Positions 19,528 through 35,047 are shown, counted from the stretch's first letter. The stretch is 55,576 nt of DNA from an uncultured Candidatus Saccharibacteria bacterium (GCA_946406315.1 CAMJKD010000008.1:1-55576), one strand, 5' to 3'. Made by a program: numbers and translations. Notes: generated from the sequence alone by a model not told the origin.

Positions 19528-20022
19528 TTACTCACCAGCAAGAGCACTGAGTACGAAGTTTACAATTGCGTAAGCAAGAATCGCAATTACAAGACCAATA
19601 ATACCGTAAAGAATTGTATCTTTGCCTTTCTTAACCTTAGTTGTGTCACCTTGAGAAGTAGCATAGCTGACACCGCCGAGAATAATCATAATAACGGCAA
19701 CCATACCTACCACAAAAATAATAGAATTGATGATAGTTTTAATAACATCATTAAGATCGCTATCATTACATTGGTCAGGATTATTAGCCAAAGTACCAGC
19801 CTGAGCACAATCTGAAGAGGTCTTACCGTAAATCGCCACATAAGAGTCATTCACCTTTACGCGCTGACAGTAAACATAGCCATCGCTTGCATCCAAAGCA
19901 AGATTTGGATATTTATTTCCTTCGCCAACACAGCTATCTAGAGCAAGAATTGGACCACCAAGCAATACGACCGCAAAGGTCGCCAATACAGCTACCTTTA
20001 TTAGTTTATTAATTGTTTTCAT
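19528..20022 (-). CDS. VirB2-like pilin with a cysteine-rich exported N-terminus
   Basis: A 164-aa VirB2-like protein. After a signal peptide (residues 1-28) there is an extra exported segment of about 70 residues with four cysteines (DSCVG, VYCQR, SSDCAQ, DQCND), then the shared pilin core: span one, loop YATSQGDTTKVKKGKDT and span two, ending FVLSALAGE. The cysteines would be free to form disulfides outside the membrane, unlike in the sister pilins. AAGGAG precedes the ATG. It lies between two transcript-ending hairpins or spacers and is highly similar in its core to 19023 and 20119. It may be a specialised minor or tip subunit; that is inference. Confidence 0.88.
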   Translation of the reverse strand: MKTINKLIKVAVLATFAVVLLGGPILALDSCVGEGNKYPNLALDASDGYVYCQRVKVNDSYVAIYGKTSSDCAQAGTLANNPDQCNDSDLNDVIKTIINSIIFVVGMVAVIMIILGGVSYATSQGDTTKVKKGKDTILYGIIGLVIAILAYAIVNFVLSALAGE

Positions 20023-20118
20023 TCGTATTTTCTCCTTATTGTTAAACGAAAAAACTTTAGTCTAATTTTATCACACCATCATGCTTATTTGTATAGAAAA
20101 ATCATAATGTTTTTCCTA

Positions 20119-20433
20119 TCAACCACCATTCATGCCCGTAAGTACGAAGCTTACAATCGCAAAAGCCAATAACGAGATAACTAAACCAATCACCCCAAAC
20201 AATACCGTATTCTTCGCCTTCTTTATTTTCTCCGCATCACCTTGCGACGTCATAAAACTAACGCCGCCTATAATAACCATAATAACAGCTACAATACCAA
20301 CCATCGCAAACACTACACTAAGAATATTTTTTATAGTTACCTGCAGGTCAGTATCGCCGCCATCAACATTAACGACCTGTTCCGAAGGTTTAGTCGTTGC
20401 TTCGGCTAAATAATAAAAAAATGTTTCCTTCAT
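20119..20433 (-). CDS. Short VirB2-like pilin without a clear signal peptide
   Basis: A 104-aa protein made almost only of the VirB2-like core: span one (about 38-60), loop FMTSQGDAEKIKKAKNT (60-76) and span two (77-100), ending LTGMNGG. The N-terminus (KETFFYYLAEATTKPSEQVV) is not a convincing signal peptide, so its membrane insertion may rely on its two spans. AGGAG lies nine bases upstream of the start, which supports this start. It sits 15 bases downstream of the tandem pilin gene, so the two are probably co-transcribed. Confidence 0.87.
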   Translation of the reverse strand: MKETFFYYLAEATTKPSEQVVNVDGGDTDLQVTIKNILSVVFAMVGIVAVIMVIIGGVSFMTSQGDAEKIKKAKNTVLFGVIGLVISLLAFAIVSFVLTGMNGG

Positions 20434-20448
20434 TTTTTGTTCTCCTTT

Positions 20449-21099
20449 TTATCCACCAACTGCCGTCAATACTAAGTTCACAATAGCTGCAGCTACCAAA
20501 GTAATAATCAAACCAACCGCCGCAGATGTAATAGTATTCTTAGCTTTTGACACCTTTTGCGAATCACCGACACTTGTCACATATGCTACACCACCAATAA
20601 CCATCATTATCACGCATACAATTCCCGCCCACATGAATGCGTGATTGAATATATTGGCAAAAAAGTTACCAGTAACCGATGTTTCAGTTATATCTACTAT
20701 TGCACCAGATATTAAAGATGCTGTCACGCAAAGCGAGACACCGATCAAAGCGCGCGTAATCGTCTTCTTACCATTAGCGACCTTACCTGGATCGCCGTTC
20801 GATAACATATATAGATAACCGCCCCAAATTACAAACCCTACACTAACGTAGCCGGCAATCTGAAGAATCATCGTGACTATATTAAGAGTTATTTTCCATA
20901 TCATTTCACGAATTTCTTCAGGTTTACTAGGTTGCGTACCATCGCAAACCGCATCGACGCCGTCATACCAAGCACGTAAACCCATAAAATGTTCCTCGCC
21001 GCACTGATCGGCAGCCGCATATACATCAGTATTCAAAAGCGTAAATTGCGAAAAAAGAAGTCCAACCCCAATCATTAACACTGCAAACACTTTTCTCAT
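20449..21099 (-). CDS. Tandem double VirB2-like protein
   Basis: A 216-aa protein containing two consecutive VirB2-like cores after a signal peptide (residues 1-29, YA-A cleavage). The first core covers about 68-132 (loop YMLSNGDPGKVANGKKT) and the second about 145-215 (loop YVTSVGDSQKVSKAKNT). Each has the two-span, polar-loop layout of the single pilins, so the protein has four spans in addition to its signal peptide. The two halves have diverged, the second being closer to the sister genes. The start codon overlaps the previous stop by four bases (ATGA). A covalent pilin dimer could act as a fixed subunit pair, for example at the base of the structure; this is inference. Confidence 0.87.
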   Translation of the reverse strand: MRKVFAVLMIGVGLLFSQFTLLNTDVYAAADQCGEEHFMGLRAWYDGVDAVCDGTQPSKPEEIREMIWKITLNIVTMILQIAGYVSVGFVIWGGYLYMLSNGDPGKVANGKKTITRALIGVSLCVTASLISGAIVDITETSVTGNFFANIFNHAFMWAGIVCVIMMVIGGVAYVTSVGDSQKVSKAKNTITSAAVGLIITLVAAAIVNLVLTAVGG

Positions 21100-21608
21100 C
21101 CTATCTCCTTTTCTTGCCCCTTTACTTGAACCGACGACGACTCTGCGCCGTCATGTACATGCTCCGCCGCTTCACTATCCGGAATTATCAACAACAACGC
21201 TAAAGCCCCAAGAGCCCATAATACTATACCGATTACAATCTCTACCATTCGTTTCTTCGCCTTTTGAACCTGCGCCTCATTATCTCGTGCCGACATTATT
21301 AAATAGCCACATATAATAAGACCAATTGTCGCCAGCACGCCAATACCAATCGAGAGAACCGAAATTGTAAACTTAATCATATCCATCAATGCTTTTTCGC
21401 CATCAGTTTCTGCCGTATTACACCAATCCCTTAAGATTGTCGCACATTGATTTTCCTTCTCCGGATCCAGCTTTACTTTTCCGCCATCCGTCCCATCAGT
21501 GGTATTATTACTGTCAGCCCAAGCTAAATCGCCTCCAATAAAAACCAGACTCATTATCGCAGCAACTACAATAACTCCAATTTTTCTCACCAAATGACTA
21601 TTTTTCAT
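21096..21608 (-). CDS. Divergent VirB2-like membrane protein
   Basis: A 170-aa protein heading the leftward pilin operon. It has a signal peptide (1-31, LAWA cleavage), an exported part with two cysteines (QCATIL and DWCNTA), then two spans around a polar loop with MSARDNEAQVQKAKKRM instead of the sGD...AKNT loop. This is a distant version of the pilin core. A C-terminal tail of about 30 residues rich in Glu, His and Ser follows the second span, which sister genes lack. The promoter is an extended -10 box at 21652. AGAGGTAA precedes the ATG. It probably belongs to the same pilus or channel set. Confidence 0.8.
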   Translation of the reverse strand: MKNSHLVRKIGVIVVAAIMSLVFIGGDLAWADSNNTTDGTDGGKVKLDPEKENQCATILRDWCNTAETDGEKALMDMIKFTISVLSIGIGVLATIGLIICGYLIMSARDNEAQVQKAKKRMVEIVIGIVLWALGALALLLIIPDSEAAEHVHDGAESSSVQVKGQEKEIG

Positions 21609-21765: not shown

Positions 21766-24582
21766 ATGGGTAGGTGGTTAAAAAACATTACCATATCTAT
21801 TATTACGACCGCGATAAGCTTAGCGGCTTTATCTGGTCCAGTTTTTGCTGCACCTACAACCTCAACTCCTAACACCGATACTACAACTACCGCCCCAGCC
21901 AATCCCACAACTCCCGCAAATCCTACAAATCCCGATAACTCAACCACCCCAGCTAACCCTACCGATAACGACGAAGACGATAATGAAGAAGAGGAGAGCG
22001 AAACTCCAACCTGCTACGACCAAGTCGGCGGCGTTGGTTGGCTCATCTGTCCTGGTACTGTTTTTCTAGCAAACGTCATAGACGGTGCCTACGGTATATT
22101 AGACAATCTTTTACGCGTTAATCCAATCCCTAGCGACACAAATTCACCAATCCATATTGTTTGGGATTACATCAGAGGTATTACAAACCTCATTTTCGTC
22201 ATCTTCTTCCTCGTCATCATCTTTTCTCAATTAACTGGTCTCGGTATCACTAATTATGGCATTAAACGCGCATTACCACGCCTAATCGTAGCCGCCATCC
22301 TTATCAACCTAAGCTATATCATCTGTACATTAGCGGTCGATTTAAGTAACGTTGTCGGCATCGCCTTGCGTAGTGTATTTCAAAATATTCAAGATATCGC
22401 CATTGCGAACGGCACCATCAATAAAATCGCTTCCGGCACCTCATCTGCCGGCATCGTTGCCACTATCTTAGGCATCGGCACCATCGGTACCGTCACTACT
22501 CTCTCATTCGCCGGCGGTCTGACTGGTATTATTTGGCTACTTCTCCCAGTAATATTATCCGGCGCCATTGCTATCATCTCTGCCGTTATTACTATGGCCG
22601 CTCGCCAAGCCCTCATCTTCCTTCTTGTCATGGTTGCACCGCTGGCTTTTGTCTGTTATCTCCTTCCAAACACCGAAAAATGGTTCCGTACCTGGTACCA
22701 AATGTTCTTCCGCATGATTTTCTTTTACCCATTATTCAGCATTCTCTATGGCGCCTCTCAGCTTGCTGGCTATATCACTATCACTTCGGCTACCAGCTGG
22801 CTAAGCGTCGTATTAGGTATCGCCATCCAAGTCTTACCATTATTCCTCACGTTTCCACTCATGCGCATGTCTGGCACCGTCCTCGGCGGTATCAGCAGCC
22901 TTATTCATCGCGCCACCGACCCAGCAGCCGGCTTATTGCGCCGTCGCGCCGCAGAAGGTCAGGCTCTCGCTCGCGCTCGACAACTAAACAGTACTAACAA
23001 TATCCCGCACAACCGTCTCGCACGCTGGCTCGAACAACGACGCACTAATCGTGAATTCGATCTTCAGCAAACCGTTGCTAATAATAAAGACACTTACATG
23101 ACCAATGCTGCCACCAGTATGGTTCGCGGTCGTAACCGCAAGAGTCTCAATGGTCGCGGTGTCCGTTATTATAATATGCAGGCTCGCAAGATGCAGAACC
23201 AAATCGCTCGTACTCAGTTTGAAACCGATATGGATGAAGGCTTCGACGACGGCGTAGCAGTAGGTACACCAATCGTTCGCAGTATGCGTAATGCACAGAT
23301 TGCTCGCACTAACCGCGCCTTCCAAGATGCCATTATTGATGACCATGTTGCCAAGACTCGTCAACACAGCGTCGCACGTACAAATATGGAAAATCGCGCT
23401 ATCCGCATTCGTAAAGCTCTTAGCGATGAGAATGATCGCGCTAACAGTCAAATCTATCGACAAGTTACCTCCGCTTTCCGTCAAAGCAACGCTCCAGTTG
23501 CTGGCAGTGCAGAAGAGCTCGCCGTCAAACGCTCCGTTAATGATGTTCTTGCCGACGCCATCGCTCAGAAACGCCGTGTCGACTCCGATATGAAGAGTAG
23601 TTATCTCGAACTCTATGATGACTCTCCAGCTGGCAAATACATTAATAACCAGCTCATTGAAGCTCTCAATACTAACGACTACAACTCCGCATCCGCCGCT
23701 ATGATTACTATGGCAAAGCGTGGCGACCACGGTGATCTACTTCGCACTATGGTCGAGCATTCCGATCAAATCTCCAACAACTTCGCAATGCAAAAGAACC
23801 TTGCCGATACCGGCCTTGGCCTCAAGAAAGAGAACCTCTACCTCTGGGCCTGGTCTAAGGCTAATATGATTCGTCGCGGTATGAGCGACAGTAATGATCC
23901 GGCACATCCAGAAGAAAACGTCGCATCCTATATTGATATGGAAACCTTCCTTCGTGGTGGCACTATGCCGGGTGATGGCGCTAATGCCAGCGATAAGCTT
24001 AGGAAGGCATCACTCAAACAAATCTTCAGCGACCTTAATGGCTGGTCTGCTGTTGCTACTCAGGACCGCACGGTCTTCAAAGAAATGTTTAAGCTCATTC
24101 AAGACGGCACCATTCCAATACCTACCAACGCCGCCGGGGAAGAACAGTTCCCACTTATCTTTCCAGAAAAATACATCCGTTCTGCTGCAGTATCTGGCCT
24201 CATGGATGGTGAACAACTTAGCACACTCAATACGCTTCTTACTGGCGGCTACAAGTCCGGCGCCGCTCAACAGAGTCAATGGTTCTATGACCATCAGGGC
24301 ATGATCGAGAATCAGCTCATGAGCTACGTAAATAATATGGTCGCTAGCCAGCTCGTCAGCTCCAAGAGCTCTACGATTAAAGATATTAACGGTGCATTAC
24401 TCGAAATTCATCCAAACGATTATGTCGAAAAGACTGTTAACGGCCAAATTATGCGTGTCAGCACTCAGCTCTATAACGCATTCGACGCCGAACGCGCCGC
24501 TCTTAATAAACCAAGCGCCATTAACCAACGCAACTCGATGAATAAAGAGATTCGCGAGATGTTCGATATTAGCCTAAATTAA
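21766..24582 (+). CDS. TrbL/VirB6-like inner-membrane channel protein
   Basis: A 938-aa polytopic protein. Residues 1-27 are a signal peptide (GPVFA-A). A linker rich in Thr, Pro and Asn followed by an acidic run covers about 28-85. About seven to eight membrane spans occupy 105-375, with alternating long spans such as the LIFVIFFLVIIFSQL and FPLMRMSGTVLGG regions; this is the TrbL/VirB6-type core expected to form the inner-membrane part of the secretion channel. The remaining 550 residues are a long, charged, helical cytoplasmic tail rich in Arg and Asn, including many MRRR/RARQ-type patches at its start. It is followed by PrgI- and VirB4-like genes, as expected of a type IV secretion system. 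Confidence 0.85.
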   Translation: MGRWLKNITISIITTAISLAALSGPVFAAPTTSTPNTDTTTTAPANPTTPANPTNPDNSTTPANPTDNDEDDNEEEESETPTCYDQVGGVGWLICPGTVFLANVIDGAYGILDNLLRVNPIPSDTNSPIHIVWDYIRGITNLIFVIFFLVIIFSQLTGLGITNYGIKRALPRLIVAAILINLSYIICTLAVDLSNVVGIALRSVFQNIQDIAIANGTINKIASGTSSAGIVATILGIGTIGTVTTLSFAGGLTGIIWLLLPVILSGAIAIISAVITMAARQALIFLLVMVAPLAFVCYLLPNTEKWFRTWYQMFFRMIFFYPLFSILYGASQLAGYITITSATSWLSVVLGIAIQVLPLFLTFPLMRMSGTVLGGISSLIHRATDPAAGLLRRRAAEGQALARARQLNSTNNIPHNRLARWLEQRRTNREFDLQQTVANNKDTYMTNAATSMVRGRNRKSLNGRGVRYYNMQARKMQNQIARTQFETDMDEGFDDGVAVGTPIVRSMRNAQIARTNRAFQDAIIDDHVAKTRQHSVARTNMENRAIRIRKALSDENDRANSQIYRQVTSAFRQSNAPVAGSAEELAVKRSVNDVLADAIAQKRRVDSDMKSSYLELYDDSPAGKYINNQLIEALNTNDYNSASAAMITMAKRGDHGDLLRTMVEHSDQISNNFAMQKNLADTGLGLKKENLYLWAWSKANMIRRGMSDSNDPAHPEENVASYIDMETFLRGGTMPGDGANASDKLRKASLKQIFSDLNGWSAVATQDRTVFKEMFKLIQDGTIPIPTNAAGEEQFPLIFPEKYIRSAAVSGLMDGEQLSTLNTLLTGGYKSGAAQQSQWFYDHQGMIENQLMSYVNNMVASQLVSSKSSTIKDINGALLEIHPNDYVEKTVNGQIMRVSTQLYNAFDAERAALNKPSAINQRNSMNKEIREMFDISLN

Positions 24583-24624
24583 TCTAGAAATGGACCTTAT
24601 GCTGACAATTATTATTAACGATTA

Positions 24625-24633
24625 TGCTAAAAT
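24625..24633 (+). promoter_or_regulatory. Extended -10 box of prgI gene, leaderless
   Basis: TGCTAAAAT is followed by six bases (ATAATC) and then ATG at 24640. It may add transcription for the prgI/virB4 genes. Confidence 0.55.
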
Positions 24634-24639
24634 ATAATC

Positions 24640-25746
24640 ATGGCGCAGTATAAGGTCCCTCAGGATGTAGAGGCCGAAGATAAACTTCTCGGACCTTTTA
24701 CCTTTCGCCAATTTGTCTACCTCATGATTATAGGTGGCTTAATTGGCTTAGGTATTTTATTTTGGCAGTTTTTTCCACCCTTAATAATCGTGCTCATTCC
24801 ACCAATCCTCCTTCTTGGCGCTCTCGCTTTGCCGCTCAAGAAAGATCAGCCTATGGAAACATATCTTTCCGCCGTTGTCTCCTTTTATCTGAAACCGCAC
24901 ATTCGCACCTGGGAGCCGGGCGAACCCGAATCTACTATTATCATTACAGCGCCCAAAAAAAAGGAAGAACAACGCACTAAAGATCTTGATCAAGATGAGG
25001 CTATGCATCGCCTATCTTTCCTTGCCGACATTATCGATACTGAAGGCTATGCCATTAAAGGTGTCATGCCAAATACCGGTATTAAAGACGAAGTCTACGC
25101 TGAAGCAAGTGATACCCTCGATATGTTCGAAGATTCAACCGCTAGTAGCACTTCTATAAATCAGACTCTTCAGAACGACGCATCCGAGCGTCGCAGTCAA
25201 GCAATTAATCAAATGCGTGCCGCTATTGAAAATAATGCTAATCAAGCAAAAAATACTACCATAACTCATAATAATCGACAGATCCAGCCGACCATAGCGC
25301 CTATCGCCAATACCACTCAACAGCCGCAAACTATTCCGCAACCACCAGCCCTCCCTCAAAGCGAAACCGCCAATATGCCTATCCCTAATCAAGAAGTCCA
25401 GGCAACACCAGAAGCTACAACCATACCTCAGGCTATCGAATTTGAAGACCCTCTCAGTGATGAGATTGTTAAAAACAATGATACAATCATAAAGCCAGAC
25501 TCTATGATTGCGGAAATTGAATCCGAAAAAGCCGAAGAAGCCGAACGCCAAGCTAAGGAAGAAGAGCAACGCAAAGCCGAAGCCGAAGCTAAACGTCAAG
25601 CCGAAATGAAAGAGGTTAAAGAGCAAACCGACCCCAACATTATCAATCTTGCAAATAATACCGACTTCTCCATTGAGACCATCGCTAATCAAGCAAAACG
25701 CATAAAAGAGAAGAAAGACGACGAAGTTTATATTTCATTACACTAA
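24640..25746 (+). CDS. PrgI family type IV secretion protein with long tail
   Basis: A 368-aa protein. The first 100 residues match the PrgI family of Gram-positive conjugation systems: YKVPQDVEAEDKLLGPFTFRQF, then two adjacent spans (about 27-48 and 50-66) separated by a short turn, and YLKPHIRTWEPG after them. PrgI proteins act next to VirB4 and the VirB6-like channel. The rest (100-368) is soluble and low-complexity: Asn/Gln-rich, then a Glu/Lys/Ala-rich segment about 300-335 likely to be a coiled coil. The long tail is not part of classical PrgI. It is followed nine bases later by the VirB4 N-terminal-like gene. The start is set by an extended -10 box six bases upstream. Confidence 0.87.
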   Translation: MAQYKVPQDVEAEDKLLGPFTFRQFVYLMIIGGLIGLGILFWQFFPPLIIVLIPPILLLGALALPLKKDQPMETYLSAVVSFYLKPHIRTWEPGEPESTIIITAPKKKEEQRTKDLDQDEAMHRLSFLADIIDTEGYAIKGVMPNTGIKDEVYAEASDTLDMFEDSTASSTSINQTLQNDASERRSQAINQMRAAIENNANQAKNTTITHNNRQIQPTIAPIANTTQQPQTIPQPPALPQSETANMPIPNQEVQATPEATTIPQAIEFEDPLSDEIVKNNDTIIKPDSMIAEIESEKAEEAERQAKEEEQRKAEAEAKRQAEMKEVKEQTDPNIINLANNTDFSIETIANQAKRIKEKKDDEVYISLH

Positions 25747-25755
25747 GGAGTTAAC

Positions 25756-26634
25756 GTGCAACCACAACAACCACAGACAATACCAAATCAAAACCCACAA
25801 CAACCCGGCGCCACTCCACAACAAGGAGCTATTATGAGTCAACCCGGCACCGCACCTCAGCAAGGAACCACCACAAACCAGCCTGGTGCCACTCCCGGAC
25901 AACCAGCTCCAGCTACTCCGCGAAAAGAAAATCCAACCTCAACGCAAGCCTCTCTGATTATTTCTGAGTTGCGCGACTCGATGGTTATTATGAAAGATGG
26001 CTCCTTCAGGGCTGTGGTTGCCTGTAAGTCCATCAACTTCGACCTTATGTCTGAAACCGAGCGCGAAGCAGTTGAATATTCTTATCAAAACTTCCTAAAC
26101 TCCCTAAATTTTACAATTCAAGTCCTCATTCGCTCCCAACGCGTCGATATTGGACCATATCTTGATCGCCTTACCGAGCTTCGTCGCAATAACGACAACA
26201 TGCTTCTCGGTATCCTTATGGACGACTATATCGACTTTATCGATGAACTGTCTCAAGAAGCAAACATTATGGATAAATCATTCTTTATTGTTATTCCATA
26301 TTACACTTCATCTGAAGCCGAAAAAGCCGTTACTCAAACTAAAAACTTCTTTAAGTCATTCAGTAATACCAAAAGAGCAACTGTCACGCGTATAGATCGC
26401 GCCACCTACGACAAAGCGGCCACGGAAATCAATAACCGCGTTGAAGCCGTCATATCTGGTCTTTTCCAAATCGGCGTCCATTCTGTTCGCCTGAACACCA
26501 AAGAACTCGGTCAACTTTACTATAACTTTAATAATCCAGATACTGCCGTCCGCGAACCGCTCGGCGACTTTAGTAAACTAGCACACTTATACGTTAAAAA
26601 GGGTGAGCCCGGTACAGAAGGGAGTCAAAAATAA
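25756..26634 (+). CDS. VirB4/TraC N-terminal-domain-like protein
   Basis: A 292-aa protein with a GTG start preceded by AAGGAG. Residues 1-60 are Gln/Pro/Gly-rich and repetitive. The folded part (about 65-285) has the pattern of the N-terminal domain of VirB4/TraC ATPases: SELRDSMVIMKDGSFRAVV, the FNSLNFTIQVLIRSQRVDI region, and the KAVTQTKNFFKSFS segment. It carries no ATP-binding motif. Its TAA stop overlaps the ATG of the next gene (TAATG), which supplies the ATPase, so together they look like a split VirB4. In known systems this domain mediates contacts with the membrane channel. Confidence 0.8.
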   Translation: MQPQQPQTIPNQNPQQPGATPQQGAIMSQPGTAPQQGTTTNQPGATPGQPAPATPRKENPTSTQASLIISELRDSMVIMKDGSFRAVVACKSINFDLMSETEREAVEYSYQNFLNSLNFTIQVLIRSQRVDIGPYLDRLTELRRNNDNMLLGILMDDYIDFIDELSQEANIMDKSFFIVIPYYTSSEAEKAVTQTKNFFKSFSNTKRATVTRIDRATYDKAATEINNRVEAVISGLFQIGVHSVRLNTKELGQLYYNFNNPDTAVREPLGDFSKLAHLYVKKGEPGTEGSQK

Positions 26635-28430
26635 TGGCAAAGAAAAAACAGCTCAGCGCCGCCGACATTGCCGCGCAAGCACAACTCCAAGAAGAAGTTG
26701 AGATTCAAAAAGCATTTGAAACCGGCATTACTACGCTTCGTGATCTTATTTCGCCATCCAGTATTGAAATTCATTCCGATTATTTCCGTCTTGGCACTAA
26801 ATATGGTCGCACTATCTACATCTATGGCTATCCTCGTATGCTTTATACTGGATGGCTTAGCTCTATTATTAATATCGACGAAGTTATCGACGTTTCCATG
26901 TTTATTTACCCAGTCGATACCAGCGTTATCATGAAAAACCTTACTAAAAAAGTAACCCAGCTCGAAGCTAGTATGAATATTAATAGCGAGAAGGGGAAAG
27001 TACGCGACCCAGAGCTCGAAGCCGCCATCTCAGACGCCGAAGATCTTCGCGACCAACTTCAAGTTGGTGCCGAGAAATTCTTCCGCTATGGCCTATATGT
27101 TACTATTTACGCCGACTCTCTCGACGAACTTCAATTTGTCCAGCATAAAATCGAAAATATCTTAGGTCAACAAATGGTTTTCAGCAAAGTTGCCAGCTCT
27201 CAGCAAGAGCAGGGCATGAATAGCACTATGCCTCAATGTTCCGACCAACTCCAGATTCGCCGCAACATGAACACTGGCGCTATTTCCACTAGCTTCCCGT
27301 TCACGTCCGCCGACCTAACCCAGGAAAAAGGCATTCTTTATGGCGTCAATATGCACAACAACGGTCTTGTCATTTTTGACCGATTTACTCTCGAAAACGC
27401 CAACATGGTCGTCTTTGCTAAGTCCGGTGCCGGTAAATCATTTACCGTCAAGCTCGAAGCCCTACGTTCCATGATGGTTGGTACTGAAATTATCATTATC
27501 GACCCAGAAAACGAGTATCAAAAGCTTTGCGATGCCGTAGGCGGCGCCTATGTTCGCTTAAGCCTCAACTCCGACGTTCGTATTAATCCGTTCGATCTCC
27601 CAAAAATCGTCGATACCGAAGACGCCAACGATGCACTTCGCGCCAACCTTGTCACACTCCATGGTCTATTTCGCCTTATGCTCGGCAATGGTGTCGGTCT
27701 CTCCCCGACCGAGGAAGCCGACCTCGACCAAGCTCTAATTGATACCTACGCGCGCGCTGGTATTACTAATGATCCATTAACCCATACCGCTATTCCACCA
27801 ACAATCATGAACCTGTTTGACACCTTACTCCATATGGGTGGTTCTGGTCCTAGTCTCGCTCAACGTTTACGCAAATATACCACCGGTAGCTTTGCCGGTA
27901 TCTTCTCACAACAGTCAAACATCGATATTAATAATCAAATGGCCGTCTTTAATATTCGCGACCTCGAAGATGAGCTACGTCCAGTAGCTATGTACATCGT
28001 CCTATCGCATATTTGGAACATTGTTCGCGCCCAGCAAAAACGCCGTCTCCTCCTCGTAGATGAGGCTTGGCAGTTAATGAAATATGAAGATTCCGCCAAC
28101 TTCCTCTTTAGTCTCGCTAAGCGTGCTCGCAAGTACTATCTTGGACTTACAACTATTACACAAGACGTCGAGGACTTTATGTCGTCAAAAATGGGACGCG
28201 CTATTGTCGCAAACTCATCCATGCAGCTTCTCCTTAAGCAATCCGCCTCTGCAGTCGATGTTCTCTCTGATGTATTTAAGCTTACCGACGAAGAGCGCAA
28301 GCGTCTCTCTAACTTTCCAGTCGGACAAGGTCTATTCTTCGCCGGTCAAAATCACGTTCACGTTCAAATTGTCGCATCCAACACCGAAGAAGACCTCATT
28401 ACAACTAACCCAGTTGAAGCTAAAAAATAA
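26634..28430 (+). CDS. VirB4-like conjugation ATPase
   Basis: A 598-aa ATPase that powers type IV secretion and pilus biogenesis. An N-terminal alpha/beta region (1-210) is followed by the RecA-like ATPase domain: Walker A AKSGAGKS (262-269) in the strand VVFAKSGAGKSFTVK, the family motif IIIDPENEYQKL (287-298), Walker B LLLVDEAW with Asp476-Glu477, and the C-terminal motif GLTTITQDVEDF. The length is shorter than full VirB4 (about 800) because part of the N-terminal region is in the preceding gene. The two genes overlap by one base. No VirD4 coupling protein or relaxase is seen within this window, so transport of DNA cannot be assumed. Confidence 0.93.
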   Translation: MAKKKQLSAADIAAQAQLQEEVEIQKAFETGITTLRDLISPSSIEIHSDYFRLGTKYGRTIYIYGYPRMLYTGWLSSIINIDEVIDVSMFIYPVDTSVIMKNLTKKVTQLEASMNINSEKGKVRDPELEAAISDAEDLRDQLQVGAEKFFRYGLYVTIYADSLDELQFVQHKIENILGQQMVFSKVASSQQEQGMNSTMPQCSDQLQIRRNMNTGAISTSFPFTSADLTQEKGILYGVNMHNNGLVIFDRFTLENANMVVFAKSGAGKSFTVKLEALRSMMVGTEIIIIDPENEYQKLCDAVGGAYVRLSLNSDVRINPFDLPKIVDTEDANDALRANLVTLHGLFRLMLGNGVGLSPTEEADLDQALIDTYARAGITNDPLTHTAIPPTIMNLFDTLLHMGGSGPSLAQRLRKYTTGSFAGIFSQQSNIDINNQMAVFNIRDLEDELRPVAMYIVLSHIWNIVRAQQKRRLLLVDEAWQLMKYEDSANFLFSLAKRARKYYLGLTTITQDVEDFMSSKMGRAIVANSSMQLLLKQSASAVDVLSDVFKLTDEERKRLSNFPVGQGLFFAGQNHVHVQIVASNTEEDLITTNPVEAKK

Positions 28431-28452
28431 TACATTTTTATCTAGTTTATAT

Positions 28453-28486
28453 TCGACATTTTTATAAAAATATTGTACAATATAAT
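28453..28486 (+). promoter_or_regulatory. Promoter before the 1146-aa protein gene
   Basis: TCGACA (28453-28458), a 17-base spacer and TACAAT (28476-28481), overlapping TATAAT (28481-28486). The ATG at 28492 lies within a few bases of the expected start site, and no Shine-Dalgarno is present, so the mRNA may be leaderless. Confidence 0.6.
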
Positions 28487-28491
28487 TATCT

Positions 28492-31400
28492 ATGGTCTCC
28501 ACACCACGTAGCAGGCATTATCGTAGAAAAAACGATCCATACAATGCTATGGAAGAGGCGATTATTCGCCCATCAAATATTTCTAAACAGCAGCTTTCTG
28601 ATGCTGAAAAAACTGCTACAGTCATACCAGAAGACAATCTCAATATCGAAGACCCTTCCTACACTGGACGAAATCGCCGCGAAAGCAACTCTGATGCACT
28701 CCGTCGTCGCGAACGTAATCAACGCAGCAATTCAACAACCCAATTAACGACCAACTTTCGTAATTCCGTCCAAGGGCGTAATCCAAAAACCAGCAAAAAA
28801 AGCAAAGGCAAAGGCAATCTCTTTAAGAAAATTGGACCAATCGGCGCTATTACTGGCATCCTTTTTGGTGGAGGCTTTTTCTTCTATGCATCTCAATCCA
28901 TGTTAGCACCGCATATTTCCGCACTTTATACTCAAGCAACCGACCTTCAATATACTTCATATAATATGCGCAACGCACGTATTATGTCCTATATGATCGA
29001 TGGCGGCAGTCAAATTAAAATCAGTAATTTTACTAAAAAATATACTTTTTTTACTCCATATCTTCAAAAACGTCTTACTAATAACGGTATTGAAGTTGGA
29101 CATCTAAACACCGATGGCAATTTCGAAGCCGGTCAAGCAATTATCGGTGGCAAAACCGTGCTAAAATACGGCGACAAAGTAATTGACGCTAATCATTTCC
29201 AAGACGAATTCGCTTCTAACGCAAACTTTCGCGACGCCTATTACAACGCAAAACGTGGTCGAATTGCTGGCTTCTTTGATAAATCATCGGAAGCCTATTA
29301 TAAGAAAAAGGGTGCAACCCGCGATATTTTTAATGAATATAAATCTACCGGCGATGAAGATGCCGATATGGAAAATTTCAAAGAAACTGTATCTGATCGT
29401 GTAGTAGGCAGCGACGGGTCTATCAATACTGTCCGAACCGAAACAGACGAAGAAACCGGCGAAGATACCGTTCGCGAAAATGGCGAAGATATTACCACTC
29501 GCAATATTGACGGCGCCACCCCAGAAACCAAAGCTCGTGCCATGGTTAATAATATCGCCGGCAAAGTTTCAACGGTCGGCGTACCAGTCTGTTCAGCCTT
29601 ACGCATCGCCAACATCGCTGCCGTCGCTGTATCCTCTTACCAAATTTATCAATCAATCGCATATTTTCTTAGTTTCATGGAACCAATTAGCAAAATGATG
29701 GCAGGGGAAGGTACAGCATCTGGCATCAACGAAACTCTCAACTTCATGACCCAACAAACCACTAACGATATTTCATATGTCAATAATAATGGCGAAACCA
29801 CCACTAAGACACTTACCGGATCAATGCTAGAATCATCTGGCACTAAACTCATAATGGGTAATACTATTTCACCAGAATCCGCCGTTCAACCATTTTCCTT
29901 TGATAATATCACCAAAGCCGCCACCCGTATCGCTATTAGTGCAGGCGCTACCACCACAGTCTGTTCTGGCGTTCAAGCCGCCTCCGCAATCGTGTCTCTA
30001 GCTTCCAATGCTATCCCGGGCGGCAAACTAGCCACTTTTGTAGTTGGCGCAATCGCTCAAACCGTTGGCGGTATTGTTATGACCGGTATTATATCTGCCA
30101 TCATAAATGCTATCATGCCATATGTTGCAAAAATGTTTGCTAGCAATATTTTCGAGACTTACACTGGCATCCCAGCTGGCGAGCTATTCTCTCAAGGTGC
30201 CGCGACGGCGAACTTTTCTCTCGCATCTCAAAGTAGCGCCTTTATGCCATCCTCGGAGGATGCCATAAAAACCCAAAATAAACACACTAGCCGCGCTATT
30301 GCTCAAGAGGCTGAAATTGATCGACTTCATCGTAGTCCGCTTGATGCGTCAAGCCCTAACACCTTCCTCGGCTCTATTATGGCAAAATTTTCATATTCAT
30401 CATTCTCAAACCCATTCACTGGCAGTTTGGCTAATATTACACGCGTAGTTGGTAGCTCAATTAATAAACTAAATCCTGTCGTTGCTGCAACAGATGACGT
30501 TAATCTCGAAGTCGACTACACTACTCAATACTCAGAATGCAATAACCTCAAAGGTACTATATGCGATATGTACGGTTACCCAATTCCAAGTTCCGATTAC
30601 TCAACCATCGACATCGCGCCAGATGATCCAACTTATCAAGCCGTCATTGAACCAAATATCGAATACACCACCGGCAACTCATCTACTAGCTCATCGACTG
30701 GCAGCGCCTATAGCGGCAAGGTATATTCTGGCCAAAAATATAATCTCACCGATGCACAAATCTCTGGCTTAATCGCAATGGTTAAACATGAAAACGGCGG
30801 TAGCCTTGAAGCTATGCAAACCGAAGCAACCCAAATGGTAAATCTATTTGAATATAAGAAAAAAGATACCCCACATACAGCCGACAACTTTATTGATTAT
30901 ATCGTTAATAGCGGTTGGTATGCGACAAGTGGCTACTACAATACTAGCAATAATGACTATACTCAGACCGAATTCAACGCTATGAAAGATATTTGGGTAA
31001 ACGGCAAACGCATCATGCCACCACAAATCGTCGAGCATGACTGTATAAAGTGTGGAAATACCTATGATATCGTCTGGGCAAAAAATGATGGCGTATCGTT
31101 CAATGTCGATGATCGCGAAAAATATATTTCCGGCAAAACTCTACTACACAACCGCTACGGTTCGACATATGTCTTCTATAAATTCGCAACCAACTCTACC
31201 CGCGAAGGCGATCCATTTGGTTATTTTCAAGATAATCCACCTACCGAAAGCGGATCATCCTCATCAAATAATTCAAGTTCATCAAATCCATCAAATGCTG
31301 GCTCAACAGAAAGAATTAAAGATAATTCCGAACTCGCTAAATTCATTAACTTCTGCGTCAATCGCGAATCTCCATGGGGCGTAACCGACGCAAACATTCT

Positions 31401-31932
31401 CAACGCTCTCCAAACCGACGGCGGAATTATTGTTAATAACTTACCATTCGTAAATGATATTATCGACGTCGCAAATGCTATCGAAGACACCGCAAATCAA
31501 AAATGGGCCACCGGCGAAATCTGTATTAATTCAAGCGACAACCCACGTTGGAATTCGGAATTTAAATATTATCAACGCTATATCGAGGATATGCGTATCG
31601 TTTACGGTATGAACAATCCGGAATCTGGCGAAAAGAGCCCCGTCGTAGCTTATCAAGAACGCTACGAAGCCACTCATCCAGTCGATCGCAGTTTTAAGGG
31701 AACTCTATCGCGTATTTCCGGTCTCAGCATGGACGACGTCGCACTTCTAATTGAATTTATAGATTACTCCACTCAAATTGCCAACTATGACCCTTCTACT
31801 CGTGACAAATTTGGAGATTATAAAGAAGCAGAAGTTAAACCAGGATTTACCCAAACCGATACCCCATCCATTAATATTCTTTCTATTATTTCCGAACCAT
31901 TCTTTATTGATCGAAGGAATTATATCGTATGA
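28492..31932 (+). CDS. Large membrane protein of the secretion locus, SleB-like C-terminal segment
   Basis: A 1146-aa protein of the secretion locus. Residues 1-105 are polar, basic and cytoplasmic. A span at about 115-140 (IGAITGILFGGGFFFYASQSML) anchors it; two further hydrophobic regions lie near 365-395 and 480-555, containing Gly/Ala-rich helices. The C-terminal third is extracytoplasmic. There, from about residue 755, SGLIAMVKHENGGSLEAMQ with Glu767 and a following PHTADNFIDYIV resemble the start of SleB-type wall hydrolases, but the match is partial. Ser-rich linkers separate the parts. The stop overlaps the next ATG (ATGA). The gene may help span and locally open the wall. Confidence 0.78.
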   Translation: MVSTPRSRHYRRKNDPYNAMEEAIIRPSNISKQQLSDAEKTATVIPEDNLNIEDPSYTGRNRRESNSDALRRRERNQRSNSTTQLTTNFRNSVQGRNPKTSKKSKGKGNLFKKIGPIGAITGILFGGGFFFYASQSMLAPHISALYTQATDLQYTSYNMRNARIMSYMIDGGSQIKISNFTKKYTFFTPYLQKRLTNNGIEVGHLNTDGNFEAGQAIIGGKTVLKYGDKVIDANHFQDEFASNANFRDAYYNAKRGRIAGFFDKSSEAYYKKKGATRDIFNEYKSTGDEDADMENFKETVSDRVVGSDGSINTVRTETDEETGEDTVRENGEDITTRNIDGATPETKARAMVNNIAGKVSTVGVPVCSALRIANIAAVAVSSYQIYQSIAYFLSFMEPISKMMAGEGTASGINETLNFMTQQTTNDISYVNNNGETTTKTLTGSMLESSGTKLIMGNTISPESAVQPFSFDNITKAATRIAISAGATTTVCSGVQAASAIVSLASNAIPGGKLATFVVGAIAQTVGGIVMTGIISAIINAIMPYVAKMFASNIFETYTGIPAGELFSQGAATANFSLASQSSAFMPSSEDAIKTQNKHTSRAIAQEAEIDRLHRSPLDASSPNTFLGSIMAKFSYSSFSNPFTGSLANITRVVGSSINKLNPVVAATDDVNLEVDYTTQYSECNNLKGTICDMYGYPIPSSDYSTIDIAPDDPTYQAVIEPNIEYTTGNSSTSSSTGSAYSGKVYSGQKYNLTDAQISGLIAMVKHENGGSLEAMQTEATQMVNLFEYKKKDTPHTADNFIDYIVNSGWYATSGYYNTSNNDYTQTEFNAMKDIWVNGKRIMPPQIVEHDCIKCGNTYDIVWAKNDGVSFNVDDREKYISGKTLLHNRYGSTYVFYKFATNSTREGDPFGYFQDNPPTESGSSSSNNSSSSNPSNAGSTERIKDNSELAKFINFCVNRESPWGVTDANILNALQTDGGIIVNNLPFVNDIIDVANAIEDTANQKWATGEICINSSDNPRWNSEFKYYQRYIEDMRIVYGMNNPESGEKSPVVAYQERYEATHPVDRSFKGTLSRISGLSMDDVALLIEFIDYSTQIANYDPSTRDKFGDYKEAEVKPGFTQTDTPSINILSIISEPFFIDRRNYIV

Positions 31933-34133
31933 AAAAAATAATAAGATTTCTCAAATCGAGCTTCCTTATTGCTGTAGCTATTATAACTACTCCAACTTAC
32001 GCCGCCTTGCCAAGCGATGATGTCCTAGACATGTTTAACAAAAATGGCATTTATTATTACAATCCAGGAGGAAATGAAGACGATTGCAATACTAGCTCAA
32101 CTACGCTTTCTGGCAGCGATACTGCTGAAAAAATCTGGAACTTCTTTATTCAACAAGGCTTTAACGATGCTCAAGTCGCCGGTCTACTTGGCAATGCGAT
32201 GGCAGAATCTAGTCTTATTGCAACCGCATCAAGAAACGGCTCTTATTTTGGGCTTTTTCAATGGGGTGGCGGACGCAAAGATAAATTATTTAAAAAACTT
32301 CAAGAAGCTGGTCTTAGCAAATATACTTCATTAGAATATTGGGGTCATGATGCCGATAAAAAAATACCAGCCGCAGATTACGATAAGATCATTCAGTTAG
32401 AACTAGAACAAACCATAGAGGAAAAAGATCTTAATTGGCAAGAAGAAATCAAAAAAGCCAATAATCCAGAATTAGCTGCAGAAATATTCCTAACCCTATT
32501 TGAACGCGCCGTCGGCGGCGACTCTGAAGTTTTATATTACGCGCCATATGCCGGTAGGCTATATCAGGGCACTAAAGCACGTCGCGATTATGCCAAGGAA
32601 TTTTATAACAAATATGCCGGCAAAGGGATTCAAAGTTCCGGCAAAGCAAATGGTAATGCAGAAAATGGTAAGAATATCACCATCATCGGCGATTCAATTA
32701 CTGTTGATTCTAAAAATGCTTTAATGAAAAAATTCTCAGATATTTCCGAATCAGATATTAACGGTCGCGTCAGTCGTCCATGGGGAGAAGGCAATACTGT
32801 CGCAAAATCAATGACTTTAAAAGATATTGTCGTTTTTGCACTTGGAACAAATTCGGCTGGACTCACTAAAGCACAAGTTGAAGAAACCATATCCACTCTC
32901 GGTGCTAATCGCACAATCGTATTCGTCACGAACTATGATGGAAATAATCAAAATCAATTCACTTCAAATAATAATCTTTTCAAAGAACTTGCCAAATCTA
33001 ATTCAAATATCATAGTCGCCGATTGGGCGGAGACGGTTGCCCAAAACCCCGAAACATATCTTTATGGCGACAAAGTTCATCCAAATTCAGCCGGTGCAGA
33101 ATTATTTGCGGAAACTATTTGGAAAGCTATCAATGCTAATACTAACGAAAACGGCTGTAGCGTAAATGGCGAATTTCAGGCACTTGTTTTGGGATATGCT
33201 TGGCCAGAATATCACGCACCGCCTTGGCATGATCGAATGCCAGCCTACGCCGAAGCAGTAACTCAATCTATTAGCGAAGGTCGCTACGTCGGCGGCTCCG
33301 TTGCTGGCGTTCCCGGTATCGACTGCGGAGGTTTTGTTACTATTCTTGTCCAAAATTCCGGTCTCGAACCAAATTACAATGACACTAAAGGCGCCACGGA
33401 CACCCAGGAAGCATGGGTAAAGTCTCATAACTGGCAGCTAATTAATAGTTCAGCCAGCACAAGAGTTGACACTAGCCTACTTCAGCCAGGCGATGTCGCC
33501 TTCTCAAGCGGCCATACCTTTATTTACGTTGGCGAAATACCAGGTTTCGATAGCGTTATCGCCTCCGCATCGTATTCAACCCACGGCTCCGGTCGTGCTC
33601 CGATGGCCGGAAGGGAAGATTTAACCTTCGGTAATGGCGTCATCGTTCGCTGGTATCGTAACCCTAATTTCCATCCAGGTGAAACCCCTTCTTCTATCGC
33701 CAATCATGCCGCTGGCAACGTCTCTAATAGTGCACCATCTGGCGCGACCCTACTCGATAACCACCACATTACTTTCTACGGCGCTGGCGCTTCCGAAAAC
33801 GGCGGCAACACTGGCCGTAACGCTAGTTCACAATACAACAACGGCAACCTCGCACCAGGACAAGCTGCCAGTAATTATCTGCCACTCGGCACCGTCGTAT
33901 ATGTTAAAACTCAACCTAGCGGCGAAGCAAGTTACGCAAACGGAAAATATTTCCTCATCACAGACCGCGGAGCAGGGAAGATTGATGGTGATTATAACCT
34001 CGATATTTTCCATGACGTCGCACAACCATCCGACAATAATTATCCTCCATACGGCTCATCGTCTACCGCAGAAATCTATAAAGTCGCTGAAAACGTTTCA
34101 TGGGATACATTTAAAGCAAAATATGGGTGGTAA
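31929..34133 (+). CDS. Four-domain secreted wall hydrolase (lysozyme, SGNH, NlpC/P60-like, 3D)
   Basis: A 734-aa secreted protein with a signal peptide (1-25, TYA-A). Domains in order: a phage tail lysozyme-like domain (about 65-230) with GLLGNAMAESS and catalytic Glu93; an SGNH esterase/lipase domain (249-400) with GDSI (Asp255-Ser256), GTN (306-308) and DKVH (Asp381, His384); an NlpC/P60- or CHAP-like peptidase (about 420-580) with DCGGF (Cys466) and SGHT (His529); and a 3D double-psi domain (610-715) with YLPLGTVVYV and ITDRG (Asp679). All four active-site sets look intact. Such a combination could cut glycan strands, remove acyl groups and cleave peptides. It overlaps both neighbours. Likely host- or self-wall directed, like VirB1-type proteins. 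Confidence 0.85.
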   Translation: MKKIIRFLKSSFLIAVAIITTPTYAALPSDDVLDMFNKNGIYYYNPGGNEDDCNTSSTTLSGSDTAEKIWNFFIQQGFNDAQVAGLLGNAMAESSLIATASRNGSYFGLFQWGGGRKDKLFKKLQEAGLSKYTSLEYWGHDADKKIPAADYDKIIQLELEQTIEEKDLNWQEEIKKANNPELAAEIFLTLFERAVGGDSEVLYYAPYAGRLYQGTKARRDYAKEFYNKYAGKGIQSSGKANGNAENGKNITIIGDSITVDSKNALMKKFSDISESDINGRVSRPWGEGNTVAKSMTLKDIVVFALGTNSAGLTKAQVEETISTLGANRTIVFVTNYDGNNQNQFTSNNNLFKELAKSNSNIIVADWAETVAQNPETYLYGDKVHPNSAGAELFAETIWKAINANTNENGCSVNGEFQALVLGYAWPEYHAPPWHDRMPAYAEAVTQSISEGRYVGGSVAGVPGIDCGGFVTILVQNSGLEPNYNDTKGATDTQEAWVKSHNWQLINSSASTRVDTSLLQPGDVAFSSGHTFIYVGEIPGFDSVIASASYSTHGSGRAPMAGREDLTFGNGVIVRWYRNPNFHPGETPSSIANHAAGNVSNSAPSGATLLDNHHITFYGAGASENGGNTGRNASSQYNNGNLAPGQAASNYLPLGTVVYVKTQPSGEASYANGKYFLITDRGAGKIDGDYNLDIFHDVAQPSDNNYPPYGSSSTAEIYKVAENVSWDTFKAKYGW

Positions 34134-35047
34134 AAATGGAATTTTTTAAGAATCTCAATCAAAAACAACGCTTAATATTTATTATTTTTTCAATCCTTAT
34201 ATTAATTGGCACTGTAACGTTTATCATCATCTTCGCAATGCGAATTGGCAAGGTAGAAGTTACCATTCAATACGCTCCATATAGTGCAAAAATTACCCTT
34301 AATGGCACAACTGTAAATAACAAGTCAAAAATATGGCTTGAGCCAGGAAAATATACCGCCAAAATCGAATGCGAACATTTCGAAAGCATTGAACGCACAG
34401 TAGATATAAACAAAGATTATAAATACCTCGTCGGAACCCTTCATGCTATCGATAATGAAGCTGAAGAATATATCAATTCGCACAAGCAAGAATTTGTTGA
34501 AGTTGAAGGTTTAGTTGGACGTGCATTAACCGAAGAGGGAATTGCAGTTAAAAAACAATATCCAATCCTAAACTATCTCCCAATAAACAATCAACTCTTT
34601 TCGATTAGTTATGCCTATACGGATGAAAACGAACCAATTATTACCGTAAAAACTAGTCCAGAGTTTCTCGATGATGCTGTCGCTAAAATGAAAACTCTCA
34701 AAAACGTTGATCTTACAGCCTATCAAATTAACTTTACCCCGAGTAATCCTTTCGCTATTTATAAGGAATCCGCCCAATCTAAACCAGAAGACACCATCAA
34801 ATCTACTTTTAATTTAGATAAATATAAATTATCTAAAGGCCAAAATATTGCTGAAGAATATTATGCTGCCACAATCTATACCTACGATTACGACCGAGAC
34901 CTAACCTATAATCACTACCGCGTATTGCTCAAAAAACAAGATGATAAATGGCATCTCGTTACCACACCGCAACCACTGCTCACTAAACAAAATACACCCG
35001 ATATCGCCGTGGACATTCTCAATTCAGTCAATTCGCTCGCGCCCTAA
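34127..35047 (+). CDS. Single-span membrane protein with PEGA-like domain
   Basis: A 306-aa protein with a cytoplasmic N-terminus of about 12 residues, one span (about 14-36) and an extracytoplasmic rest. Right after the span, YAPYSAKITLNGTTVNNKSKIWLEPGKYTAKIECEHFES (quoted in parts: PYSAKITLNG, WLEPGKYTAKIEC) fits a PEGA-type beta domain, used for surface attachment or protein contacts. The C-terminal 190 residues have no recognised family but contain repeated alpha/beta elements ending in a DDKWHLVTTPQPLL strand. The gene overlaps the wall hydrolase by seven bases, so the two are translationally linked and belong to one secretion operon. It ends one base before the convergent recF stop. Confidence 0.8.
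   Translation: MVKMEFFKNLNQKQRLIFIIFSILILIGTVTFIIIFAMRIGKVEVTIQYAPYSAKITLNGTTVNNKSKIWLEPGKYTAKIECEHFESIERTVDINKDYKYLVGTLHAIDNEAEEYINSHKQEFVEVEGLVGRALTEEGIAVKKQYPILNYLPINNQLFSISYAYTDENEPIITVKTSPEFLDDAVAKMKTLKNVDLTAYQINFTPSNPFAIYKESAQSKPEDTIKSTFNLDKYKLSKGQNIAEEYYAATIYTYDYDRDLTYNHYRVLLKKQDDKWHLVTTPQPLLTKQNTPDIAVDILNSVNSLAP

Follow-up and report, generated by a model that had tools for sequence, protein, structure and literature searches.

A predicted multi-domain wall enzyme in a variable slot of the Saccharibacterial T4SS operon

What would a secreted protein with four wall-active modules do in a T4SS operon, and whose wall would it open? The question is raised by a locus from Candidatus Saccharibacteria, which are tiny parasitic bacteria, and it bears on how Saccharibacteria and Patescibacteria pass host walls and on what limits their hosts. 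The window (the whole 55,576-nucleotide stretch of DNA that was analysed) is contig C8 of a nearly complete 1.07-Mb genome from a rumen-type Saccharibacteria genus. Among named relatives, Candidatus Saccharibacteria MAGs are nearest, and several of these come from rumen or ruminant gut. The gene is a 734-aa ORF spanning exactly 31929-34133 (+). Its ATG overlaps the stop of an upstream 1146-aa ORF, and an ORF for a PEGA-domain protein starts at its own stop. The two large genes are referred to here as slot 1 and slot 2. Judged from the ORF, Pfam and genus relatives, the slot-2 product appears to be a secreted multi-domain wall enzyme. The reading favored here, held with moderate confidence, is that it is a T4SS wall-opening enzyme of the VirB1/PrgK type, built from exchangeable modules and probably aimed partly at the host wall.

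Modules of the slot-2 protein

The first-pass annotation had described a signal peptide followed by four wall-active modules, with Glu93, Ser256 and Cys466 as active-site residues. This description held up: all three residues were numbered correctly, profiles strongly back the lysozyme and SGNH domains, and the NlpC/P60-like and 3D-like modules score under the Pfam cut-offs. The predicted signal peptide (residues 1-25; 31929-32003, +) reads MKKIIRFLKSSFLIAVAIITTPTYA, with cleavage after TYA and before an A, and is accompanied by no obvious anchor. Catalytic residues are invariant or nearly so in the genus: E93, S256, R283, C466 and H529 are kept in 29/29 relatives, N308 and H384 in 28/29, and D381 in 27/29. 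The whole-protein model has a mean pLDDT of 73 and a low pTM of 0.38, and is therefore trustworthy domain by domain only.

The first module (residues 64-229; 32118-32615, +) is a phage tail lysozyme or gp13-type muramidase domain. It matches PF18013 (Phage_lysozyme2) with E=1e-21 and 78 bits, well past the curated cut-off of 28.2, and a profile built from the genus recovers phi29 gp13 from the PDB (3csr, E=1.5e-7). The predicted catalytic Glu93 (32205-32207, +) aligns with gp13 E45. Phage tail lysins cover residues 38-229 of the protein. A phage origin of the whole protein was nevertheless rejected, as phage records match the lysozyme part or the SGNH part only. A plasmid origin was likewise rejected, as a search of 72,556 plasmid records gave no match.

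The second module (residues 248-404; 32670-33140, +) had been labelled an SGNH esterase. The SGNH assignment stands; the esterase label is unproven, as profile and predicted fold both place the domain closest to the catalytic domain of the peptidoglycan O-acetyltransferase OatA and not to a generic esterase. The Pfam GDSL_2 match is under its cut-off (E=1e-4), while the genus profile finds the OatA catalytic domains of S. pneumoniae (5ufy, 9e-18) and S. aureus (9e-14) in the PDB. An AlphaFold2 model of the domain gives Z 22.6 against S. aureus OatA (148 residues at rmsd 1.6 A, 30% identity) and Z 21.7 against S. pneumoniae OatA; esterases all score 17.5 or lower. OatA is marked by four sequence blocks, GDS(V), (V/I)(G/S)(R/V), G(T/V)N and Dx(I/V)H (PMC5697884), and all four are present here as GDSI, VSR, GTN and DKVH. 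The key residues are Ser256 (32694), V281-S282-R283 of block II, Asn308, Asp381 and His384 (33078), all on the + strand. The further proposal that mycolyl-type or lipid groups are targeted through this domain found no support and was set aside, because the best matches are OatA domains and not lipid esterases.

These results raise the alternative that the SGNH domain adds acetyl groups, with a separate acyltransferase-3 (AT3) protein serving as donor, and so shields the cell's own wall while the remainder of the protein cuts a foreign one. The closeness to OatA transferase domains points this way. Moreover, a block II of VSR is transferase-like rather than esterase-like, and its Val favors transfer over hydrolysis in OatA (PMC5697884). 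A possible partner is encoded in the same genome, namely an AT3 protein with an OatA-like SGNH tail (L005:154-2010, contig C6). However, a Pfam search of the slot-2 ORF found no AT3 membrane domain, so the protein is not a whole OatA, and the transferase-promoting Val is missing in about half of the relatives (Val or Ile in 15/29; Ser, Asn or Ala in 14/29). Given this drift, the reaction of the SGNH domain is unreadable from sequence, and acetyl addition is considered unlikely. The AT3 protein also hints at possible O-acetylation of the cell's own wall, a point that bears on a second alternative discussed below.

The third module is an NlpC/P60-like cysteine peptidase domain (residues 414-580; 33168-33668, +). 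The isolated window domain matches PF00877 with E=0.0017, and its best score of 18.8 bits stays under the cut-off of 23; a match was obtained for 27/29 genus relatives, with a best E of 3.5e-4. The Cys and His expected of such a peptidase are present as Cys466 (33324, +) and His529 (33513, +). The fourth module, of the double-psi barrel type (3D-like; residues 603-734; 33735-34130, +), also falls short of its Pfam cut-off when searched as an isolated domain (PF06725, E=2.7e-4, 21.5 bits against 23.8). It occurs in only 6/29 genus relatives, and on the tree it was gained or lost at least four times.

The T4SS operon and the slot-1 protein

The coupling of the gene to a secretion operon, as first proposed, is borne out by the overlapping start, by the run of + strand genes with PrgI and VirB4 among them, and by a gene order kept across loci. 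All genes from 21766 to 35047 are on the + strand. The run begins with a 938-aa multi-TM protein (21766-24582), which may be VirB6-like judged by anatomy only, and continues with PrgI (VirB3-like; 24640-25746; PF12666, 1e-11), an ORF of its own that weakly resembles VirB4 N-terminal and TrsD proteins (25756-26634), and the ATPase part of VirB4 (26634-28430; NF045971, 2e-116). VirB4 is thus represented by two ORFs here. In relatives from the order, the match is to an ORF of ~600-690 aa with the ATPase part only, and the split may be general. On the - strand, 19528-21608 encodes small multi-TM proteins with signal peptides, whose anatomy may resemble VirB2-like pilins (compare PMC12102498). Beyond the operon, also on the opposite strand, translations read as recF-, dnaN- and dnaA-like genes, in agreement with the dnaA-proximal T4SS known in some Patescibacteria (PMC12102498).

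Directly after the enzyme comes its conserved partner, a membrane-anchored PEGA-domain protein (34127-35047, +; alternative ATG 34136). An N-terminal TM helix precedes the PEGA domain, and the C-terminal region is conserved. This protein could hold the enzyme at the T4SS in a VirB8-like role; a PDB sequence search gave no support for it as a VirB8/NTF2-like targeting factor. The pairing recurs outside the T4SS. A 1055-aa paralog of the enzyme on contig C2 (82437-85604; L045:4438-7605), distant from the T4SS locus, contains the lysozyme domain (1.9e-22) as well as SGNH, SleB-like and NlpC-like parts recognised by homology and reading, and it is preceded by a small 224-aa PEGA protein. An Amidase_2-like module seen by eye in this paralog was dropped, as Pfam gave it no support.

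It could be argued that the slot-2 protein is no machine part but an effector, freed to the medium or passed into the host, that lyses the host or competitors. A signal peptide without an obvious anchor would suit this, and putative T4SS effector genes of TM7x shift their expression with infection stage (PMC10768705). Nevertheless, a start that overlaps the preceding gene and a conserved position among the T4SS genes look machine-like, and no immunity-type gene was identified beside the slot-2 gene. Release as an effector is therefore regarded as quite improbable, and the reading as a wall-opening part of the T4SS is carried forward.

The slot-1 gene (28492-31932, +) encodes the 1146-aa T4SS-operon protein, which has no Pfam match. 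Comparison within the genus revealed a scaffold with module insertion sites: residues 1-724 and 942-1146 are conserved, and the stretch between 724 and 942 was found, among the relatives fetched, in the window and one further genome only. Within this stretch lies the SleB-like module (residues ~748-911; 30733-31224, +), with a putative catalytic Glu767 (30790-30792, +) that is nearly invariant in 11 copies. When the insert was modelled alone with AF2 from an 11-row alignment (pLDDT 86, pTM 0.81), the model matched SleB of B. anthracis with Z 9.7 (117/122 residues) and of B. cereus with Z 9.2 (117/128), whereas the next unrelated chain scored Z 2.9. Foldseek also ranked SleB on top, with a weak E of 1.2. 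Sequence searches against Pfam, NCBIfam and the PDB, and of the genome with PF07486, returned nothing. The SleB-like segment first noticed in this protein is thus backed by predicted fold and not by sequence profiles. A second insertion site lies at ~1041-1050, where other genus members have a CHAP domain (2.5e-6) or, in L049, a 3D-like module. In other families the large upstream proteins contain VanY (9/32), M23 (3/32) or SGNH (2/32) domains.

Slot content across the order

Further genomic analysis covered the order to which the genus belongs. VirB4 was found in 54/60 genomes and is mostly ~70-85% identical. The gene order VirB4, large protein, slot-2 protein, PEGA-type or other small protein recurs in nearly all of the 40 loci compared (~29 family-level groups), which places the slot-2 gene in the T4SS cluster with VirB4. 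In L076, L080 and L086 an extra ORF of ~190 aa separates the slot-2 gene from that of the large protein. Pfam scans of 39 slot-2 proteins (38 and that of the window; 27 family-level groups) detected wall-active domains in 37. The domains are highly diverse and include gp13-type lysozyme, SLT, glucosaminidase, M23, CHAP, C39, VanY/M15, amidase 2 and 3, SGNH, GH3, NlpC/P60 and 3D. A manual count gave ~29 distinct line-ups among the 37 proteins; one from another family (L065) also has four domains, namely lysozyme, SGNH, GH3 and amidase 3. The VirB4 tree requires at least 17 changes of the glycan-cutting class and at least 21 of the peptide-cutting class. Any overlooked domains would inflate both the line-up and the change counts, so that the trend is clear and the numbers are inexact. 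The slot is refilled wholesale between lineages while VirB4 stays conserved.

This turnover bears on the second alternative, that the enzyme clears only the epibiont's own peptidoglycan for T4SS assembly, with the SGNH domain acting on an O-acetylated wall of its own. VirB1 and PrgK provide a precedent in donors (PMC11323569, PMC12857230), and the AT3 protein described above agrees with an own wall that is O-acetylated. For an enzyme of this kind, however, a conservation like that of VirB4 would be expected, and the many line-ups, together with the extra wall modules inserted into slot 1, speak against it. Module turnover beside a conserved VirB4 speaks for a substrate that varies (the host wall) rather than one that stays the same (the own wall); this is an argument and not a proof, and it leaves an enzyme restricted to the own wall somewhat unlikely.

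On the favored reading of a T4SS wall-opening enzyme, Sec would export the slot-2 protein, which would then be retained at the T4SS, with the co-encoded PEGA protein as a possible tether, and would open peptidoglycan at the site where the machine passes through. The gp13-type domain would cut glycan, the OatA-type SGNH domain would act on the O-acetyl groups that hinder muramidases, with removal as the simplest case, and the NlpC/P60-like domain would cut peptides, presumably in this order. The 3D-like module may be an optional addition, and the SleB-like module of the upstream operon protein would provide a second glycan cutter. Slot refilling in relatives would be consistent with tuning to whichever wall has to be passed, probably the bacterial host's.

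A wall enzyme thus occupies the same position in nearly every Saccharibacterial T4SS locus examined, and its domain content varies between families. From this, it can be proposed more tentatively that slot 2 and the slot-1 inserts form an exchangeable wall-piercing cassette matched to host wall chemistry and acting as a main determinant of host range, an extension that seems possible but falls short of probable. The slot content provides a defined list of enzymes for host-wall assays and makes a link between domain content and host type testable. Moreover, the fusion of an OatA-type domain to a muramidase suggests a way in which lysozyme-blocking O-acetylation could be dealt with during contact.

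Comparison with known systems

A wall enzyme at such a T4SS position is already known in kind. A survey reported that in most classes VirB1 homologues show no high association with VirB4 (PMC12102498). In the open-access literature searched, no description was found of the four-module line-up with an OatA-type domain, of the SleB-like insert, or of module swapping at a single fixed slot across the order. Individual modules can be related to known proteins. Phi29 gp13 and the Bacillus phage 'tail lysin 2' resemble the lysozyme domain and differ in the remaining domains, and the slot-2 gene has no phage context. OatA of S. aureus and S. pneumoniae shares the SGNH fold and the four blocks; it has an AT3 membrane domain, whereas the slot-2 SGNH domain is joined to lytic domains instead. 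The catalytic domain of Bacillus SleB resembles the slot-1 module in predicted fold, at ~14% identity, and the slot-1 module differs in lacking a Pfam match and in being inserted in a T4SS protein.

Within Saccharibacteria, the closest comparison is Southlakia epibionticum, whose T4SS (SEML1_0006-0019) is essential for epibiotic growth (PMC10633639). Peptidase and lysozyme homologues are encoded directly downstream (3') of virB4 in this species (PMC10633639, PMC12102498) and were reported to be essential (PMC12102498).

Among Gram-positive systems, PrgK (pCF10), TraG (pIP501) and Orf14 (Tn916) are likewise T4SS operon partners with several extracellular wall modules (PMC11323569, PMC12857230). 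A VirB1-like role, as suggested in the first-pass annotation, is supported by the place in the T4SS operon and by a predicted exported gp13-type domain, with a signal peptide ahead of it and its catalytic Glu kept throughout the genus. The added claim of a far greater scope than VirB1 stands only in part, since PrgK already combines three wall domains, a gp13-like muramidase, LytM and CHAP (PMC11323569). In vitro, the muramidase of PrgK alone was active, the other two domains were damping or regulatory, and a VirB8-like protein bound PrgK (PMC11323569). By this example, it may be wrong to count four active enzymes in the slot-2 protein. O-acetylation of the sugars is often inhibitory to muramidases (PMC11323569), which gives the SGNH domain an obvious job. 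PrgK-type VirB1 proteins and the slot-2 protein share a gp13-type muramidase and a cysteine peptidase-like domain. The slot-2 protein differs in that no LytM domain or internal TM anchor was seen, and in the addition of an OatA-type SGNH domain and sometimes a 3D-like module. A further difference from PrgK-type VirB1 is that the line-up varies widely among slot-2 counterparts in related families.
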